Positions 8,708 through 61,599 of a stretch of DNA of 64,000 nt are shown one piece after another. The translations under genes and the position numbers were made by a program. This DNA is from an uncultured Nitrosomonadaceae bacterium (lineage in GTDB: Bacteria; Pseudomonadota; Gammaproteobacteria; Burkholderiales; Nitrosomonadaceae): NCBI GenBank assembly GCA_943787405.1, contig CALSMH010000001.1, forward strand, positions 186,001 through 250,000, read 5' to 3'. The notes under the pieces were generated by a model. The model made no database searches and was not told where the DNA came from. It saw nothing but the letters and a program-made list of their open reading frames with translations. Numbering within the stretch: position 1 is the stretch's first letter; each line of letters opens with the position of its first letter.

Positions 8708-9811
8708 TTGGCAGATGATATTGTTGTTATAGGTGGAGGGGTGATCGGGCTTACCGTGGCAAATGAGTTTTTGCGGTTGGGCGCGAAAGTACGGATTTTA
8801 GAACGAAATTACTGCGGAAGAGAGTCTTCTTGGGCAGGTGGCGGCATACTTTCGCCATTGTTGCCATGGGATTATCCGGACCCAGTGACAGAATTAACAC
8901 AGTTTAGTAACCGATTACTACCGAGCTTGGCTGAAACTCTCCGACAAGAAACAGGGATTGATCCAGAATACCGAGCTTGTGGCATGCTTGCTCTTCCTGA
9001 TATGAATAATAAGGAAGGCACCAAATTTATCGGGGCTAGGGATTGGTGTACACGTAACACTTTTCCTTTGAAGGAAGTGTATCCGAATGAAGCCTTTCCA
9101 AGGCTCACATTTGGCAAATTTGCAGATAAACTAGCATTATGGCTTCCCTCAGTTGCACAAGTGCGTAGCCCCAGATTATTACAGGCGCTGAAAATCTCAG
9201 TAGAATCATCTGGCGGTTCTATCGTAGAGCATACTAAAGTTACGGGTTGGCGGATGGGTCAAGGTCGGGTCGAGTCGGTTATTACCGATCGGGGAGATTA
9301 CTCTGGCACGAATTATATTGTTGCAGCTGGAGCGTGGAGCCGTGAAGTACTTGATAGATATGCTTCAAAAATTAACATTTACCCTGTGCGGGGGCAGATG
9401 TTGCTTTTTAAAGTAGAAGCTAGTTTGCTTGATACAGTTGTGTTCCAGAATGGGTTTTATCTGATACCGCGACAAGACGGATATATACTTGCAGGGAGCA
9501 CCGTAGAGGATTCTGGGTTTGATAAAAATACTACTACAGATGCGCGTAAGCAATTATTTGAGAGGGCCCATGATTTTTTACCCGAACTGACTGAAAAAAC
9601 TCTAGTCGGGCACTGGGCAGGGCTTCGCCCTGGGTCTCCTGAAAATATACCCGTTATTAACCGTCACCCCGTATTTGATAATCTTTATTTAAATAGCGGC
9701 CATCACCGCTATGGAGTAACTATGGCGCTCGGGAGCGCACATCTTTTATCAAACATGATCATGAAAAATCCTCAGCCATTTGATGTCGCCCCCTATAGGT
9801 GGCATTTATAA
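8708..9811 (+). CDS. thiO: Glycine oxidase ThiO (FAD-dependent, thiamine biosynthesis)
   Basis: ThiO oxidises glycine to iminoglycine, which supplies the thiazole ring of thiamine. The FAD-binding motif GGGVIG lies right at the amino end, followed by the DAO-family segment ESSWAGGGILSPL and the carboxy-terminal GHHRYGVTMALGSA. A GTG at 8693 gives 372 residues, but I prefer the TTG at 8708 (367 residues): a GGGGA ribosome site at 8695-8699 stands 8 bases before it and the protein then begins MADDIVVIGGG, as related proteins do. No other thiamine gene or TPP riboswitch is nearby. A related D-amino-acid oxidase activity cannot be excluded. Confidence 0.85.
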   Translation: MADDIVVIGGGVIGLTVANEFLRLGAKVRILERNYCGRESSWAGGGILSPLLPWDYPDPVTELTQFSNRLLPSLAETLRQETGIDPEYRACGMLALPDMNNKEGTKFIGARDWCTRNTFPLKEVYPNEAFPRLTFGKFADKLALWLPSVAQVRSPRLLQALKISVESSGGSIVEHTKVTGWRMGQGRVESVITDRGDYSGTNYIVAAGAWSREVLDRYASKINIYPVRGQMLLFKVEASLLDTVVFQNGFYLIPRQDGYILAGSTVEDSGFDKNTTTDARKQLFERAHDFLPELTEKTLVGHWAGLRPGSPENIPVINRHPVFDNLYLNSGHHRYGVTMALGSAHLLSNMIMKNPQPFDVAPYRWHL

Positions 9812-9903
9812 ATACTAGGAAATATTGTTTCTGATCTTCCCCGCTTTATCCACAGAGAACGGGGTGGTAATATTAACGTACACTAACAAAAAATATAGAC
9901 ATC

Positions 9904-10629
9904 ATGGCAGGGCACAGCAAGTGGGCAAATATCAAGCACAAGAAAGCAGCAACAGATGCCAAGCGTGGTAAGATTTTTACTCGGGCGATTAAGGAAATAA
10001 CAGTTGCTGCACGACTGGGTGGTGGTGAAATAGCAAGTAATCCGAGATTACGTTTAGCGGTTGATAAGGCTTATGATCAAAACATGCCTAAGGCCAATGT
10101 AGAGCGCGCAATTAAACGTGGTAGCGGTGATTTGGAAGGTGTAAGTTACGAAGAAATTCGTTATGAAGGTTATGGCACTGCAGGTGCGGCTGTAGTGGTA
10201 GATTGTATGACAGACAATCGTGTACGAACTGTTGCAGACGTACGACACGCTTTTACTAAACATGGCGGCAACTTGGGCGCTGATGGGTCGGTTCTGTTTT
10301 TATTTAAACATTGTGGCCAGCTCTTCTTTGCTCCGGGTACTAACGAAGAGGAACTATTGGAGGCTGCTTTAGAGGCAGGTGCCGAGGATGTAATCAATAA
10401 TGATGACGGGAGCATTGAGGTTATTACCCCGCCGTATGAATTTATAGCTATTAAAGCTGCTTTGGAGAAAGCTGAGTTCAAAGCAGAGTTAGCTGCTGTG
10501 ACCATGAAATCAAGCAATGAGATTATATTAACAGGTGAAAATGCAGTAAAAATGCAAAAGTTATTGGATGCCCTTGAAAATATAGATGATGTTCAGGAAA
10601 TTTTTACCTCAGCAGTAATTGATAGTTAA
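9904..10629 (+). CDS. yebC: YebC/PmpR-family protein
   Basis: The 241-residue protein starts [22 protein letters not shown], cut here to its diagnostic [14 protein letters not shown], and has the [11 protein letters not shown] and [10 protein letters not shown] segments of the family. Members are described as DNA-binding regulators and, more recently, as factors that relieve ribosome stalling; which applies here is not known. It directly precedes ruvC (22 bp) as in many Proteobacteria, so yebC–ruvC–ruvA–ruvB is probably one operon. Confidence 0.95.
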
Positions 10630-10651
10630 TTTATTATCTGATAGGTGACAT

Positions 10652-11170
10652 ATTCGCATTCTAGGTATTGACCCAGGCTTGCGCATAACTGGTTTTGGGG
10701 TTATCGATATAACTGGCAAAAAATTAACTTATGTCAGCAGTGGTCGCATCAAAACTTTAGATGCCGAGCTGCCATTACGTCTAAAATCAATCATGAATAA
10801 CCTCAATGAAGTTATTGCGCAACATCATCCTGATCAGGTTGCAGTGGAGCAGGTATTCGTTAACATTAACCCAAAATCAACACTGATGCTCGGGCAGGCG
10901 CGAGGTGCAGCAATTTGTGCGGCTGCATTAAATGATCTTTTTGTTGCAGAATATACTGCATTGCAAATCAAACAGGCAGTTGTCGGTAACGGTCATGCAA
11001 AGAAAGAGCAGGTTCAGGAAATGGTGAGTCGTTTATTAGGACTTTCTTCTAGGCCGGGTTCGGATGCGGCGGATGCGCTTGCTTGTGCTATTTGTCATGC
11101 TCATGGTGGTTTGGGCTTGGGTAACACATCAACCCAAGGGTACAGTATGAAACGCGGAAGACTGGCATGA
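10652..11170 (+). CDS. ruvC: Holliday junction endonuclease RuvC, probable ATT start
   Basis: RuvC cuts Holliday junctions resolved with RuvAB. Read from the ATT at 10652, the protein begins MRILGIDPG and has 172 residues. The four metal-binding acids then fall at Asp7, Glu66, Asp138 and Asp141, exactly the classical positions. The first standard start codon in frame, TTG at 10679, would remove Asp7 and leave an inactive enzyme. A TGA lies in frame at 10646-10648, so no ATG, GTG or TTG further upstream is possible. AGGTGA at 10643-10648 is a usable ribosome site. Either ATT is the real initiator, as in E. coli infC, or there is a one-base sequence error. The gene overlaps ruvA by ATGA. Confidence 0.88.
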
Positions 11171-11751
11171 TTGGAAGATTAACGGGTACATTATTAGAGA
11201 AGCAGCCACCTTTAGTGCTACTTGACGTGCAGGGTGTGGGATATGAAGTTAATGTTCCGATGAGTACATTCTATACCCTGCCAGATACTGGAGAGGTAAT
11301 TATTCTTCATACTTATCTTGTGGTGCGGGAAGATGTGCATTTGTTGTTTGGCTTTGCAACTGAAACTGAACGACAGGCTTTTCGTCAACTTGTAAAAATT
11401 TCCGGTGTGGGAGCAAGAACTGCATTAGCAGTATTATCAGGTTTGAGCGTCTCTGATTTATACCAGGCGGTGGTAGATCAGGATAGCAGGGAGATCATTC
11501 AGGTTCCAGGAATTGGCAAAAAAACTGCTGAGCGTTTGCTGTTGGAATTGCGGGACAAGCTTAGTTCTGACATGATTGGTGCTGATGGTCATGCATCCTC
11601 TTCAAAAGTAAATAATGACGTACTCAATGCCTTGTTAGCATTGGGCTATAATGAGCGCGAGGCTAGTTGGGCAATTAAAAAACTGTCCCTAGATATTAGT
11701 GTGTCTGAAGGGATACGAGAGGCTCTTAAATTTCTTTCAAAGGAAAGATAG
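11167..11751 (+). CDS. ruvA: Holliday junction branch migration protein RuvA
   Basis: RuvA binds the four-way junction and loads the RuvB motor. The 194-residue length is normal. An OB-fold amino-terminal domain (about 1-62) is followed by helix-hairpin-helix segments with SGVGARTAL and [18 protein letters not shown], and the carboxy-terminal domain that contacts RuvB (about 150-194, with [12 protein letters not shown]). It starts inside the ruvC stop (ATGA overlap), so translation is probably coupled. Confidence 0.97.
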
Positions 11752-11777: not shown

Positions 11778-12809
11778 ATGATTGAAACTGAGAGATTAAT
11801 AACTGCTGCTCCCGTTTCCTCTCAAGAAGAGGTTGTAGAGTTAGCTTTGCGCCCGAAGCGCCTAGACGAATATGTTGGTCAGGAAAAGATACGTGGACAG
11901 TTGCAAATATTTATTGACGCTGCAAGGAATCGAAAGGAAGCGCTTGATCATGTGTTGTTGTATGGTCCTCCCGGACTAGGTAAGACTACCCTTGCTCATA
12001 TAATTGCAAAAGAAATGGGGGTGAGTTTGCGTCATACGTCTGGCCCAGTTCTTGAGCGACCTGGTGATTTGGCGGCACTTCTGACTAATCTTGAGCCTAA
12101 TGACGTATTATTTATTGATGAAATACACCGCCTTTCTCCGGTGGTAGAAGAGATTCTTTATCCGGCGCTCGAGGATTATCAACTTGATATCATGATTGGT
12201 GAAGGTCCTGCGGCACGCTCAGTTAAGCTTGATTTGCCTCCTTTTACTTTAGTGGGGGCCACTACCCGTGCTGGTATGCTGACTAATCCTCTACGTGATC
12301 GTTTCGGCATTGTTTCGCGGCTGGAATTCTACTCTTCTGATGAACTTACCAGAATCGTAACTCGTTCAGCCCGGGTGATGAATGTAGAGATTTCTCCTGA
12401 TGGTGCGACAGAAATTGCTATTCGTTCACGCGGAACGCCAAGAATTGTTAATAGACTCTTGCGCAGGGTACGAGATTTTGCTGAAGTTAAAGCAGAGGGA
12501 ACCATCAGTCAGGTTGTGGCAGATTCTGCACTGACTATGCTGGATGTAGATAGTATTGGTCTTGATGTGATGGATAGAAAGTTACTTTTATCAGTAATAG
12601 AAAAATTTGATGGCGGCCCCGTCGGAGTTGATAATCTGGCTGCGGCCATTAGTGAGGAGCGCGATACTATAGAAGATGTACTAGAGCCATACTTGATACA
12701 GCAGGGATTCCTGAAACGCACACCACGCGGACGTATGGCCACTAGTATTGCTTACCAGCATTTTAGAATACCATTGAAAAATGGGTTGAGCGGTGATACG
12801 AGTGAATAA
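11778..12809 (+). CDS. ruvB: Holliday junction DNA helicase RuvB
   Basis: RuvB is the hexameric AAA+ motor of branch migration. The 343-residue protein has Walker [10 protein letters not shown] at about 63-71, Walker B IDEIHR near 114-119, the sensor segment [18 protein letters not shown] and a carboxy-terminal winged helix. It lies 26 bp after ruvA and completes the operon; ybgC and the tol genes follow at 12 bp, so transcription may continue into them. Confidence 0.97.
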
Positions 12810-14399: not shown

Positions 14400-15434
14400 A
14401 TGAGAGGGAAATCACCAGTATCTGCTAACCGGGATCAGAAGTGGATTAAGGCAGGAGTGCTAGCTTTATTGGTGCACGTAGTATTTTTTATTTTTATGAC
14501 TTTTGGGCTTAGTTGGAAAACTAATCCACCGGAAGGGATAGTGGTGGATTTATGGAGTGATTTGCCTCAGCCTGAGCAAAAACCAACTAAAAAAATTAAA
14601 GCGCAGCCACCAAAGCCAGCACCATCAAAAAAAATTAAGTCAGTGCCGCCAAAAAAAGTTAAAGTAGTGCCACCAAAAAAAGTAGAATCATTGCCGTCAA
14701 AGGCCGATATAGTACTTAAAAAAGAAAAAGAAAAAGAAAAAGAAAAAGAGAAAAAGGCAAAGTTAGCTAAGGAGAAGAAAGAAAAAGAGAAAAAGGCAAA
14801 ATTAGCTAAAGAGAAAAAAGAAAAAGAGAAAAAGGCAAAGTTAGCTAAAGAGAAGAAAGAAAAAGAGAAAAAGGCAAAGTTAGCTAAAGAGAAGAAAGAA
14901 AAAGAGAAGAAAGCAAAGTTAGCTAAAGAGAAGAAAGAAAAAGAGAAGAAAGCAAAGTTAGCTAAAGAGAAAAAAGAAAAAGAGAAGAAAGCAAAGTTAG
15001 CTAAAGAGAAAAAAGAAAAAGAGAGAAAAATAAAAGAGCAGAATGCCAGAGTGGCAGCTGAAACAGAGAGATTTCAGAAGGAGCTACGAGAAGAAGAGGA
15101 AAGAAGAAGGCTTCAAAAACTGGCTTATGCAAAAGCAGCAGCTAAGCGAAACCTGATAGATGAATATAAGGCAAAGATTCTGGCAAAGATCAAAAGTAAA
15201 CTAGTGCTGCCACCAGATTTACCAAATGATCCTGTTGCCGAGTACAATATTACATTGCTGCCAGGTGGAGAAATTTTGAGTGTTAAATTACGAAATAGCA
15301 GTGGATTTCGTTCGTTCGATGAGGCCGTAGAGCGTGCAATTATATTAGCCAGGCCGTTACCTTTACCAAAGGATAAATTATTATTTCCAAATTTTCGGGA
15401 TTTAGGTGTTAAGGTACATTATCTCGATGATTAG
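14400..15434 (+). CDS. tolA: Tol-Pal system protein TolA with long Lys-rich helical repeat
   Basis: TolA spans the periplasm between the TolQR motor and TolB/Pal. The 344-residue protein has one membrane helix at about 16-37, a Pro/Lys-rich stretch (45-100), a very charged helical domain II, and a carboxy-terminal TonB-like domain (about 245-344, with ILAKIKSKLVLPPDLP). Domain II includes seven near-identical 13-residue units (AKLAKEKKEKEKK). This is the expected long helix in an unusually pure repeated form. The gene ends inside the tolB start (ATGATTAG). Confidence 0.93.
   Translation: MRGKSPVSANRDQKWIKAGVLALLVHVVFFIFMTFGLSWKTNPPEGIVVDLWSDLPQPEQKPTKKIKAQPPKPAPSKKIKSVPPKKVKVVPPKKVESLPSKADIVLKKEKEKEKEKEKKAKLAKEKKEKEKKAKLAKEKKEKEKKAKLAKEKKEKEKKAKLAKEKKEKEKKAKLAKEKKEKEKKAKLAKEKKEKEKKAKLAKEKKEKERKIKEQNARVAAETERFQKELREEEERRRLQKLAYAKAAAKRNLIDEYKAKILAKIKSKLVLPPDLPNDPVAEYNITLLPGGEILSVKLRNSSGFRSFDEAVERAIILARPLPLPKDKLLFPNFRDLGVKVHYLDD
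14757..15029 (+). repeat. Seven tandem 39-bp units inside tolA
   Basis: Seven 39-bp units encode the 13-residue unit AKLAKEKKEKEKK in the periplasmic helix of TolA. The copies differ mainly by silent A/G changes in Lys and Glu codons; the last copy changes K to R. A shorter GAAAAA repeat (KEKEKE) precedes them. The copy number is likely to vary between strains by slippage or recombination, changing the helix length in steps of 13 residues. Confidence 0.9.
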
Positions 15435-29954: not shown

Positions 29955-30476
29955 TTATTCTAAGACCTCGATATTATGGTTTTGATTAGTATAAATACAC
30001 AAGTCTCCAGCGATAGAGAGTGATCTCTTGACAATTTCCAGGGCCTCCAGATCTGTATTCTCGAGTAGTGCTCGAGCGGCCGAATGAGCATAGCTACCCC
30101 CGCTGCCAATTGCAGCAAGCCCTAATTCAGGCTCAATTACATCACCTGCTCCTGTAATGATGAGAGTAGTTTCTTTGTCGGCTACGACGAGCATTGCTTC
30201 TAAGCGACGCAAAACACGGTCGGTACGCCAGTCTTTTGCCAGCTCTACTGCAGAACGCATAAGGTGACCGTGGTGTTTTTCTAGTTTACCTTCAAAGCGT
30301 TCGAATAATGTGAAGGCATCCGCAGTGCCACCAGCAAATCCCGCAAGAATTTTCTCATGATAGAGCCTGCGAATTTTTCTGGCACTGGCCTTGCCTACTA
30401 CAGCGCCTAGGGTTACCTGGCCGTCACCGCCAAGCGCAACTTGTGAGCCTCGTCGTGCTGAGAGTATGGTTGTCAT
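29955..30476 (-). CDS. hslV: ATP-dependent protease peptidase subunit HslV
   Basis: HslV is the proteasome-like peptidase of the HslUV complex. After Met removal the amino-terminal Thr ([10 protein letters not shown]) is the nucleophile; GDGQVTLG and the [14 protein letters not shown] segment are typical. 173 residues is the normal length. It is encoded directly before hslU and 84 bp after xerC. Confidence 0.97.
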
Positions 30477-30560
30477 GAAATTGGTCCGTTGAATGGGATT
30501 GAGCTTGAGTAAACATTGAATTATAGCGCCAATTTGCTGAGAAAAGTATTTCTGTCGGCT

Positions 30561-32140: not shown

Positions 32141-32159
32141 ATTCCCTCCTTAGTTAAAT

Positions 32160-32987
32160 TTATAGCTCAATTTCTCCGTCAAATACAGAAATAGCGGGCC
32201 CTGTCATCCAGACTGGATTATTGCCCCCTTCCCAACAAATACTTAAATTACCCCCAGTAGTCCTTACCGTAACTTTTGAATCTAGTAGTCCTCGAGTAAT
32301 TCCTGCTACTACAGCAGCACATGCACCAGTGCCACAAGAAAGGGTTTCGCCAACGCCTCTTTCGTACACTCTTAAACTAATATGTTCACGGTTTACTATC
32401 TGCATATACCCAGCGTTTACATGTTTAGGGAAGCGTGAGTGGCTTTCTATTAAGCTGCCTTCAGATAATACTGGTGATTGATTGATATCTTCAACAATTT
32501 GTACCGCATGTGGATTTCCCATAGAAAGAATACTAAACTCTATTTGTTTCTCATTGACCTCTAACAGATATGTGAGCATACGTTTATCGGCGATAAAGGG
32601 AATTTTTTCTAGCTCGAACTTAGGGGTACCCATATTCACAGTCACTTCGCCATTAATTTCTAATTTAGAAAAAATGATTCCGCCAAGCGTTTCCACACTA
32701 ATTTCTTTTTTTTGAATCATTCCTTTGTCATAAACATAGCTTACTAGACAACGTGCACCATTACCGCATTGTTCTACTTCGCCACCATTAGAATTGAAAA
32801 TACGATACCGGAAATCAGCATCGCTTTCTGTCCTTTCTATTAACAGAATCTGATCACAGCCTATGCCAAGACGACGGTTCGCAAGGTAACGTAATTGCTC
32901 CAGACTTAAATTTACAGATTGATTCACACAATCAATAAGAACAAAATCATTGCCCAAGCCATGCATTTTAGTAAATTTATATTTCAT
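32160..32987 (-). CDS. dapF: Diaminopimelate epimerase
   Basis: DapF converts LL- to meso-diaminopimelate for lysine and peptidoglycan. Both catalytic cysteines are visible: Cys74 in EQCGNGARC and the second in LSCGTGACA near residue 218. 275 residues is the usual length. It is the first gene of the leftward run dapF–DUF484–xerC–hslV–hslU–argS–SPOR–dsbA–SDR–msrA and is divergent from metK. Confidence 0.96.
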
Positions 32988-58699: not shown

Positions 58700-60040
58700 T
58701 TATGGTGCAGAACTTACGATTTTTGAGCGTGAAAGGGGTGGATTTTTAGAAAAGTAACGTTTAATCCCATCGAGCACTGCTTGGGCCATTTTGTTCTGAT
58801 AGGATTTCTTTAGAAGCTTTCTCTCTTCATTTGGGTTACTAATAAAAGCAGTCTCCACTAAAATTGAAGGAATATCAGGAGATTTAAGCACAGCAAATCC
58901 TGCCTGCTCTACATCACTCTTATGTAAATGATTTATTTCACCAATTTTTGATAATACTTCCTTAGCAAGAGTATGACTATCCTCTCTTGTCTGTGATAAC
59001 GAAAGATCCAGAAGAGTTTTATTAAGGTAGGGATCCTTGGTATCAAGATTAACACCGCCAATTAGATCGGCATCATTTTCTCTTTTTGCTAGCCAGCGCG
59101 AAGCTGCTGAAGTTGCGCCACGCTCAGATAACGTAAATACAGAAGAACCTCTTGCATGAGGTTTAACAAAAGCATCGGCATGAATTGATACAAATAAGTC
59201 TGCTTTTAGTTTTCGTGCCTTTTCTAGGCGCATTGGTAGTGACAGGAAATAATCCCCGTCCCGAGTTAACGCTGCTCGCATATTGGGTTCGGCATCTATT
59301 TTAGCTTTTAATTTCCGCGCAATGGCAAGGACAATATTCTTCTCGTGCGTACCCCTCTTACTCACTGCTCCAGGATCTTCTCCCCCGTGACCGGGATCAA
59401 TTGCAACAGTTATGACTCTTATGGCTGTAGAAGGTTCCTTGCTGCCAGCTATAGTTGTATTTGGTTTTCTATCGGACTGGATATGCTCAGAAGCACTAGC
59501 CTGTGCGGATTTTATTGCCCCTTCATTTATTAATGCCATTAAAGGGTCTGGTGGAGAAGTAGGGTAAATATCTAGGACCAAGCGATGACCATAATCTCCT
59601 ACAGGTTTAAGTGTAAACGCCTGTGGTTTAACCTCACTTTTTAGATCCAGTACAAGCCGTAAAACTCCTAATTTAAATTGGCCAACACGAAGTGCACGAA
59701 TATATAAGTTATCGGCACTTACCTTTCCAGGTAATTTTTTTATTTCAGATGTGAGCGTAACATCTATTAAATCCAGAACCACTCGATCTGGGTTCTTAAG
59801 TAAAATAAGGGAGTAATTTATAGGGCCATCTGATTCTAGTGTAAGGCGGGTATATTCTGATGCCGGCCAAATACGAGTAGAATTAACCGTTGTGTTAGCA
59901 GAAACAGAAGAAACAAATAAAGAGAGCTGGGATACCACTAGAATCAATAGGGCATAAAATTTTGCTGAAAACAGAGCCCTCAGACAATCAATTGATGTTC
60001 TAATTAAGGACTCCTTTTGACTTGCCAATCTTTCAAACAT
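58700..60040 (-). CDS. amiC: N-acetylmuramoyl-L-alanine amidase AmiC with AMIN domain
   Basis: The enzyme cuts the bond between muramic acid and the stem peptide during daughter-cell separation. The 446-residue protein has a signal peptide (core ALLILVVSQLSLF, end SVSA near 48), an AMIN domain (about 55-150) for septal targeting, and an Amidase_3 domain with zinc residues in IDPGHGGEDPG, THEKN and SIHADAF, and the catalytic Glu in LVETAFISN. The start overlaps tsaE by 37 bp. In many relatives mutL and miaA follow; here a MacAB-type exporter does. Confidence 0.94.
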   Translation of the reverse strand: MFERLASQKESLIRTSIDCLRALFSAKFYALLILVVSQLSLFVSSVSANTTVNSTRIWPASEYTRLTLESDGPINYSLILLKNPDRVVLDLIDVTLTSEIKKLPGKVSADNLYIRALRVGQFKLGVLRLVLDLKSEVKPQAFTLKPVGDYGHRLVLDIYPTSPPDPLMALINEGAIKSAQASASEHIQSDRKPNTTIAGSKEPSTAIRVITVAIDPGHGGEDPGAVSKRGTHEKNIVLAIARKLKAKIDAEPNMRAALTRDGDYFLSLPMRLEKARKLKADLFVSIHADAFVKPHARGSSVFTLSERGATSAASRWLAKRENDADLIGGVNLDTKDPYLNKTLLDLSLSQTREDSHTLAKEVLSKIGEINHLHKSDVEQAGFAVLKSPDIPSILVETAFISNPNEERKLLKKSYQNKMAQAVLDGIKRYFSKNPPLSRSKIVSSAP

Positions 60041-60498
60041 TGTCTGCCAACCTCCGTGCCAGCCTGAATTTCAATTTTGCGTCCTGTTTCGATTATAGTA
60101 AAAGAAATCTGTATATCGGCTATAGGCAATAGTTTTTCGGCTTTTTCGGGCCACTCCACCAGACAAATTGAATTTTCATTAAAATATTCACGAAAACCAG
60201 CTTCTTCCCATTCTATCGGGTCAATGAAGCGATAGAAATCAAAGTGATAGAAGTATAACCTAGATATTTTATAAAGCTCAACCAAATTATATGTAGGACT
60301 TTTTACTTTTCCCTCATAACCTAAGCCACGTAAGATTCCTCTTGCAAGTGTTGTTTTGCCTGCGCCAAGGTCGCCCTTTAGAAAAATAATAAGCCCTGGA
60401 CGCAATATAGTTGCAATTTCTGCACCAAAAGTCAGAGTTATAGGCTCACTCTCAAGGTGGCATGTTGTACCTGAATTGTTATGATAAGAACTATGCAA
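60004..60498 (-). CDS. tsaE: tRNA threonylcarbamoyladenosine biosynthesis protein TsaE
   Basis: TsaE is the ATPase of the TsaBDE complex that makes t6A37 in tRNAs. The 164-residue protein has Walker A GDLGAGKTT at 42-50, SPTYNLVELY near 83 and LVEWPEKAE, all family motifs. Its 5' end overlaps that of the divergent queG, and its 3' end overlaps amiC, forming a very compact block. Confidence 0.94.
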   Translation of the reverse strand: MHSSYHNNSGTTCHLESEPITLTFGAEIATILRPGLIIFLKGDLGAGKTTLARGILRGLGYEGKVKSPTYNLVELYKISRLYFYHFDFYRFIDPIEWEEAGFREYFNENSICLVEWPEKAEKLLPIADIQISFTIIETGRKIEIQAGTEVGRQCLKDWQVKRSP

Positions 60499-61599
60499 AA
60501 TAATATTTCCAATTATCCTCTTACAGACTTAGTCTCTTTGACAAGTGATATCAAAATTTGGAGCAGAGAGCTTGGGTTTCAAGAAACCGGTATCTCTGAT
60601 GCCAAGGCCGAGAAATCACATGTTGAGAGGGGTTTGTTGGCGTGGTTAAATGAAGGTTATCACGGCAACATGGATTATATGGCAAAACATGGCATTAAGC
60701 GCTCTCATCCAGATAAATTAATACCAGGCACGCTGCGAGTAATTTCGGTACGGATGAATTATTCGCCGCCTAAAACAAAAAACAGCTGGCAAGTGATAGA
60801 AGATAGTGAGAAAGCATTTATATCTCGTTATGCTCTTGGCCGAGATTATCACAAGGTGTTGCGTGGTCGATTACAAAAGCTTGCTGATAAAATAACCGCT
60901 CAAATAGGCCATTGTAACTATCGTGTGTTTTCTGATAGCGCTCCTGTTATGGAGGTGGAGTGGGCGCAAAGGTCTGGCCTTGGATGGCGCGGGAAGCACA
61001 CTCTATTGCTTTCGCGTGAAGCTGGTTCAATGTTTTTCCTTGGGGAAATATATACTGATTTGCCGCTACCTGTAGACGATCCGATCGATAACCACTGCGG
61101 AACTTGTAGGAAGTGTATTGATATATGTCCTACTAAAGCCATCATAGGGCCCTACCGATTAGACGCAAGGCGATGCATTTCCTATCTTACTATCGAAAAT
61201 AAAGGCAGTATTCCAGAATCCTTGCGCCCGCTTATTGGAAACCGGGTCTATGGGTGTGATGATTGCCAGCTAGTTTGCCCTTGGAATAAATATGCTGAGG
61301 TTACCGGGGAAAGTGATTTTTCTGTACGTAATGGCTTGGATAACGCATCCCTAGTTGAGTTATTTAGCTGGAACAAAGAAGAATTTAATACTAGGCTTGC
61401 TGGTAGCCCAATCCGCCGAATCGGGTATGAACAATGGCTCCGAAATTTGGCAGTAGGATTAGGCAACGCTTCATCTTCCAAAAATATCTCTGATGCATTA
61501 AAAGCTCGATATAACGATGATTCGCCTTTGGTTCGTGAGCATGTGCAATGGGCTTTAAAGCAACAGAGCTTACAGACGAATCGAAACAAAATTATCTGA
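60481..61599 (+). CDS. queG: Epoxyqueuosine reductase QueG
   Basis: QueG reduces epoxyqueuosine to queuosine in tRNA using cobalamin and two [4Fe-4S] clusters. The 372-residue protein has CGTCRKCIDICPTKAI and CDDCQLVCPWN for the clusters and a carboxy-terminal HEAT-like repeat. The ATG at 60493 (MQNN) would reduce the overlap with tsaE from 18 to 6 bp. A hairpin follows the stop. Confidence 0.95.
   Translation: MIRTMQNNISNYPLTDLVSLTSDIKIWSRELGFQETGISDAKAEKSHVERGLLAWLNEGYHGNMDYMAKHGIKRSHPDKLIPGTLRVISVRMNYSPPKTKNSWQVIEDSEKAFISRYALGRDYHKVLRGRLQKLADKITAQIGHCNYRVFSDSAPVMEVEWAQRSGLGWRGKHTLLLSREAGSMFFLGEIYTDLPLPVDDPIDNHCGTCRKCIDICPTKAIIGPYRLDARRCISYLTIENKGSIPESLRPLIGNRVYGCDDCQLVCPWNKYAEVTGESDFSVRNGLDNASLVELFSWNKEEFNTRLAGSPIRRIGYEQWLRNLAVGLGNASSSKNISDALKARYNDDSPLVREHVQWALKQQSLQTNRNKII

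Follow-up and report, generated by a model that had tools for sequence, protein, structure and literature searches.

A near-cognate codon as the probable start of ruvC, near-fixed in Nitrosomonadaceae

The question of where translation of ruvC begins was raised by a stretch of DNA of 64,000 nucleotides (hereafter the window) from the genome of an uncultured Nitrosomonadaceae bacterium (1.45 Mb, 8 contigs, 97.65% complete). The window carries on its plus strand, in this order, yebC (9904-10629; ATG start; NCBIfam NF001030/TIGR01033), ruvC, ruvA (11167-11751; TIGR00084), the ATG start of which overlaps the ruvC stop codon, and a gene with an ATG start at 11778-12809, which we take to be ruvB from its sequence and place rather than from a family scan. 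When open reading frames were listed with ordinary starts (ATG, GTG or TTG), ruvC appeared as a 163-aa frame from TTG at 10679-10681; this TTG is the earliest ordinary start in frame with ruvC and would drop residues 1-9 including Asp7. The initial annotation had placed the start at the ATT codon at 10652-10654. A separate observation concerned 14400-15434, where a presumably TolA-like protein, so named from its place and look and not from a family scan, contained a KEKEKKAKLA stretch repeated many times.

The sequence from 10643 reads AGGTGA CAT ATT CGC ATT CTA GGT ATT GAC CCA GGC. The hexamer AGGTGA (10643-10648, plus strand) was assigned as a Shine-Dalgarno sequence, and its last three bases form an in-frame stop codon, TGA (10646-10648), with CAT as the only codon between this stop and ATT. 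The stop blocks any longer frame, no ATG, GTG or TTG occurs in frame before TTG 10679, which lies past Asp7, and GTG 10645 is out of frame and runs into TGA at 10669, all as the initial annotation had described. The stop codon of yebC, TAA at 10627-10629, is located 22 bases ahead of the ATT. Counted from this ATT, ruvC (10652-11170) encodes a crossover junction endodeoxyribonuclease of 172 aa, identified with TIGR00228 and with 1hjr and 6lw3. The TIGR00228 score was 188.1 bits (cut-off 100.65), with residues 3-151 matched to positions 1-149 of the 156 in the model, and the NF000711 score was 155.8 bits, below the cut-off of 163. Residues 3-152 aligned on residues 3-152 of E. coli RuvC (1hjr), and Asp7, Glu66, Asp138 and Asp141, which we take to be the catalytic residues, lay at exactly those numbers, bearing out the earlier claim that they fall at their classical positions when read from ATT. 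A promoter and terminator scan of 9750-11250 detected no terminator-like site and a single promoter-like site, which lies on the minus strand, and no fold beyond chance was found in the ruvC leader RNA (z -0.03).

The codon was then followed through 125 genomes, one per species, which were assigned to Nitrosomonadaceae by inference from the named relatives ranking high in the RuvC search, among them Nitrosospira, Nitrosomonas and Nitrosovibrio. A search for AT-N followed by the RuvC N-terminus gave 119 matches (ATC 70, ATT 46, ATA 2, ATG 1). The six genomes missed by this AT-demanding pattern were searched with Pfam RuvC, which rescued three (ATT in G100, ACC in G067 and ACT in G103) and detected no RuvC in G007, G031 and G143. 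As an aside, G031 (99% complete, 2 contigs) yielded neither RuvC, sought by protein and by Pfam search, nor RuvA, sought by protein search, which may be a natural loss. In the 122 genomes with RuvC, the Met1 codon was ATC in 70, ATT in 47, ATA in two, and ATG, ACC and ACT in one each; ATC, ATT or ATA (ATH) was consequently present in 119/122. ATG or GTG at this point in relatives had been named beforehand as the observation that would speak against an ATT start; ATG was found in one of the 122 and neither GTG nor TTG exactly at the codon in any. A first look at 30 family loci had likewise shown ATT or ATC in all 30.

The upstream DNA was read in all 122 family genomes, 121 of which were parsed by script and G100 separately. 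The distance from the yebC stop to ruvC codon 1 had a median of 24 bases (range 4-233) in the 121 scripted genomes, 23 of which had some in-frame ordinary start upstream. The other 98, one of which (G146) was read over 133 upstream codons only, had no in-frame ATG, GTG or TTG upstream and carried ATC (58), ATT (38), ATA (1) or ATG (1), that is, ATH in 97 of them; with G100 included, there were 99 such genomes among the 122, and 98 of these had ATH. Of the six genus relatives that have ruvC, five shared the arrangement of a stop, one codon and ATT seen in the window, and the sixth (G006) also has ATT, but in a longer frame with TTG five codons upstream. Isolate genomes with ATC and no upstream ordinary start were those of Nitrosospira multiformis Nl18 and Nl7, Nitrosovibrio tenuis Nv1 and Nitrosomonas oligotropha Nm75, and ATC or ATT with GTG or TTG 9 to 17 codons upstream was found in Nitrosospira briensis Nsp8, Nitrosospira sp. 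Nl5 and Nitrosomonas sp. Nm166. A 247-codon frame upstream of ruvC in Nitrosovibrio sp. Nv17 (L104) was rejected as a fusion; its translation is unlike YebC, and it is most likely an open wrong frame.

Outside the family, RuvC was found in 217/220 genomes of an order-wide sample. The upstream DNA was read in 42 non-family genomes, comprising 22 of a first sample and 20 picked mainly for short open frames, and ATH without any in-frame ordinary start was seen in six of them (G050, G195, G243, G290, G293 and G302), a share biased upward by this way of picking; in the remaining 36, an ordinary start (ATG, GTG or TTG) stood at this codon or before it. Beyond the family, the frame was often longer, with an ordinary start further upstream and Ile, Val or Thr at the position aligned with Met1. 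Among the named loci, Gallionella relatives either carried ATG or TTG as this codon or had a start upstream of it. Six Candidatus Nitrotoga loci (L109, L113, L115, L122, L124 and L137) had ATG, or GTG in L122, six codons upstream, and the residue aligned with Met1 was Ala, Thr or Ser; L119 was alike. ATC was found with no alternative start in a Sulfuricella MAG (L130) and with the frame open to the end of the locus in a Hydrogenophilales MAG (L091). Across 80 named loci of the family and beyond, 27 were without an upstream ordinary start, with ATC in 14, ATT in four, ATG in seven, and TTG and GTG in one each. The near-cognate ruvC codon is thus close to fixed in Nitrosomonadaceae and turns up only here and there in neighbouring groups of the order. 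It was also observed that two loci of the order but not of the family (L269 and L270, from G228 and G332) have TTG right after the apparent yebC stop, followed by TRILGIDPG or ARILGIDPG.

The region upstream of the codon was conserved at -10 to -5 and at -3 to -1, with AGGTGA-N-AAA as the prevailing sequence in the 121 genomes. AGGTGA is complementary to TCACCT in the 3' tail of the 16S rRNA of the window genome, GGATCACCTCCTTT. GGTGN was present in the last 22 bases before codon 1 in 83/121 genomes and absent in 38, and in these 83 its end was separated from codon 1 by 4 bases in 73, by 3 bases, as for the CAT of the window, in six, and by 8 to 16 bases in four. A loose Shine-Dalgarno pattern, which was devised after viewing the sequences and is thereby favoured, was present at -18 to -3 in 109/121 genomes, whereas four control stretches of 15 bases had it in 9, 20, 16 and 16 of the 121; the strict pattern (AGGTG or GGTGA) was present in 81/121, compared with 0, 6, 0 and 0 in the control stretches. 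Among the 100 genomes that lack an ordinary start within 13 codons, 98 had the loose pattern, compared with 11 of the 21 that have such a start, and the contrast was weaker for the strict pattern (72/100 versus 9/21); the Fisher p values, which ignore kinship, were 1.5e-7 and 0.02, respectively. The median predicted pairing energies in up to 35 loci were -8.1 kcal/mol for ruvC, -5.05 for yebC, -2.95 for ruvB and -8.2 for ruvA, so that ruvC had a stronger site than yebC and ruvB, but not than ruvA.

The genomes departing from this arrangement were inspected individually. Both genomes with a non-ATN codon, G067 (ACC) and G103 (ACT), have TTG or GTG a few codons upstream. G067 also belongs to a group of seven (with G013, G065, G066, G081, G082 and G097), called Nitrosomonas by inference, in which no Shine-Dalgarno sequence was found at the proper distance and the nearest TTG lies 5 to 7 codons upstream; six of the seven adjoin in the tip order of a 58-genome tree, from which the seventh is absent. 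The six members other than G067 keep ATC or ATT despite the missing Shine-Dalgarno sequence and may start RuvC at the upstream TTG, and the codon can therefore persist without being a start. The two genomes lacking the loose pattern among the 100 without a nearby ordinary start were G012 (ATC) and G016, the latter being the sole ATG genome of the 122. The combination of a strong codon and a weak site in G016, against a weak codon and a good site elsewhere, is suggestive only, as a single case.

The codons themselves were also informative. In 35 family loci obtained by protein search, residues 2-10 were RILGIDPGL in 34 and HILGIDPGL in one. These loci are the independent support for conservation of the N-terminus, as that of codons 2-9 in the large set is partly built in by search patterns demanding the RuvC N-terminal residues. 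Third bases varied within the conserved N-terminal codons of the 121 genomes, and the conserved residues together with these variable third bases indicated that RuvC is read as protein from codon 2. ATA was found at codon 1 in 2 of the 118 genomes with ATH, while the Ile codons 3 and 6 were ATA in 23/121 and 98/121, respectively; mutation bias and shared ancestry could partly contribute to the avoidance of ATA at codon 1. The 58-genome tree required at least nine changes at codon 1, ten at codon 3 and eight at codon 6, a warning that all these counts are of genomes and not of independent events.

The neighbouring genes and infC served as controls. The start was ATG in 34/34 loci measured for yebC and in 30/30 for ruvB, and ATG (30), TTG (3) or GTG (2) in 35 loci for ruvA. 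The infC gene was found in 58/61 genomes and read in 30. ATA preceded the conserved N-terminus in all 18 family loci, two of which had an additional in-frame TTG or GTG at a greater distance upstream. The remaining 12 loci of this set (L138-L167) had ATC or ATA, with an upstream ordinary start in four; in L150, ATG lies two codons before the ATC/ATA codon. Since the near-cognate start of infC was recovered, the approach detects a known example.

Taken together, the sequence comparisons indicate that ruvC is very probably translated from the AUU codon at 10652, and the competing readings were weighed against this. An assembly error hiding an ATG, or an extra base joining GTG 10645 to the frame, as the initial annotation had put forward as its alternative, might be suspected in a draft genome of 8 contigs; this reading lost its ground when five of the six relatives in the genus proved to share the stop-one codon-ATT arrangement and isolate genomes to have an ATH start, and we regard its probability as practically negligible. 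Translation might also begin at GTG 10645 and shift into the ruvC frame. An out-of-frame ordinary start within 75 bases does have a frame overlapping codon 1 in 83 of the 98 genomes that lack an in-frame one, but nine of the 98 have such a start in the frame of GTG 10645 only, 68 in the other frame only, six in both and 15 in neither, so that no single shift fits all, and the GTG is accounted for as a part of the Shine-Dalgarno sequence; such a frameshift is extremely unlikely. A short RuvC beginning at TTG 10679 or another downstream codon is exactly what the mechanical list of open reading frames reports. It would lose Asp7 and lower the TIGR00228 score from 188.1 to 170.5, and would leave residues 2-9, kept in 35/35 family loci apart from one R2H and encoded with variable third bases, outside the protein, and is hence very unlikely.

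There is also little chance that translation starts from another near-cognate codon close by, for example ATT 10658 (codon 3), or from a CTG-like codon upstream in the longer open stretches. Codon 3 is likewise ATH, and several upstream codons are open in many relatives, but CAT alone fits between the stop and ATT in the window, the Shine-Dalgarno spacing is nearly fixed with respect to codon 1, and codon 3 tolerates ATA in 23/121. The ATC or ATT could finally be a leftover Ile codon of a longer ancestral RuvC in a gene that is barely translated or dying. The Ile, Val and Thr residues found at this position within longer frames outside the family would suit this origin; however, the frame is open for at least 140 codons in 58/58 family genomes with a full locus, no internal stop occurred among the RuvC matches listed, and 98 of the 100 genomes without a nearby alternative have a Shine-Dalgarno sequence before the codon, leaving this possibility only a small probability.

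A partial screen for further near-cognate starts was carried out by comparing 207 stop-to-stop open reading frames of the window with stretches of G002, G003, G006, G008 and G035, with G005 excluded. A homologue was found for 85 of the 207, and 59 of these aligned ahead of the first ordinary start, many of them being shadow frames. Nine of the 59 were inspected by eye, and for most of them a relative had an ordinary start at the corresponding position or close to it; no second clear near-cognate start was found among these nine candidates. For the frame at 29955-30560, a stop falls within the extension in G006. A plus-strand stop-to-stop frame at 32158-32481, which matched G006 ahead of its first ordinary start, may be a shadow frame rather than a gene. 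On the minus strand, a TTG start shared with G008 is possible at 60004-60528, probably tsaE, so named from its P-loop sequence.

The translation of ruvC from AUU could proceed as follows. The Shine-Dalgarno sequence AGGUGA would place the ribosome at AUU at a nearly fixed short distance, and the initiator tRNA would presumably begin with formyl-methionine at AUU or AUC despite the third-base mismatch. Selection would then keep a near-cognate AUC or AUU start across Nitrosomonadaceae, and we somewhat favour the explanation that it acts for a low output of RuvC through the weak start. RuvC is active as a dimer that works together with many subunits of RuvA and RuvB. The weak start may hold this junction-cutting enzyme at a low level compared with RuvA and RuvB, the genes of which have ordinary starts; a low set point would be plausible for such a nuclease. 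In bacteria that have been studied closely, IF3 discriminates against near-cognate starts, as known from work on E. coli, and the ruvC output may for this reason track the IF3 level. That RuvC belongs to an IF3-sensitive regulon, with its level set by IF3 and growth state, is a tentative and rather doubtful extension; if true, it would couple the cutting of DNA junctions to the state of the translation machinery.

The parallel with infC drawn in the initial annotation was only partly sustained. Like ruvC, infC, the gene of IF3, has a conserved near-cognate AUU, AUC or AUA start, and the weak start thus held as a common feature. The infC gene limits itself at this start because its own product disfavours such starts, which closes a feedback loop. 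RuvC has no role in initiation, and self-limitation of this kind is impossible for ruvC since the loop needs a gene product that is IF3; the weak start would only limit ruvC, or tie it to IF3.

To our knowledge, few bacterial genes have a conserved near-cognate start. The ruvC gene would add a DNA-repair nuclease to them, in over 100 genomes with one per species, and the natural exceptions, namely the one ATG genome and the TTG group, make the purpose of the weak start testable. A literature search, in which subscription papers were thinly covered, found no earlier report of a near-cognate ruvC start. The present case also suggests that gene callers limited to ATG, GTG and TTG shorten RuvC and lose a catalytic aspartate, as the list of open reading frames in the window did. 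Another nuclease gene, rnhC, offers a comparison. According to PMC13068326, rnhC (ATC) and infC (ATT) of Listeria have fixed non-canonical starts, as does ruvC here, although rnhC encodes another enzyme and belongs to another phylum; the same paper reports non-canonical starts in six of 2265 conserved Listeria genes, and reduced rsbW expression from ATT and ATA starts. In Staphylococcus aureus, cvfC1 (AUU) and ccpN (AUA) combine a conserved near-cognate start with an extended Shine-Dalgarno sequence (PMC13009471); AGGTGA would probably count as extended in the sense used there. The same paper states that IF3 acts against near-cognate starts. Reporters with the S. aureus AUU and AUA starts reached about 10% of the AUG level in poor medium, and the ccpN AUA rose to 30% in rich medium while the cvfC1 AUU showed no medium effect (PMC13009471), a reason not to take growth-state control for granted at an AUU start. 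The S. aureus starts were mapped by experiment, whereas the one proposed for ruvC comes from sequence evidence. The chromosomal pcnB gene of E. coli is reported to be kept low by an inefficient AUU start (Binns and Masters 2002, as cited in PMC13009471); it differs from ruvC in gene and function, and the ruvC start has been traced across a whole family.
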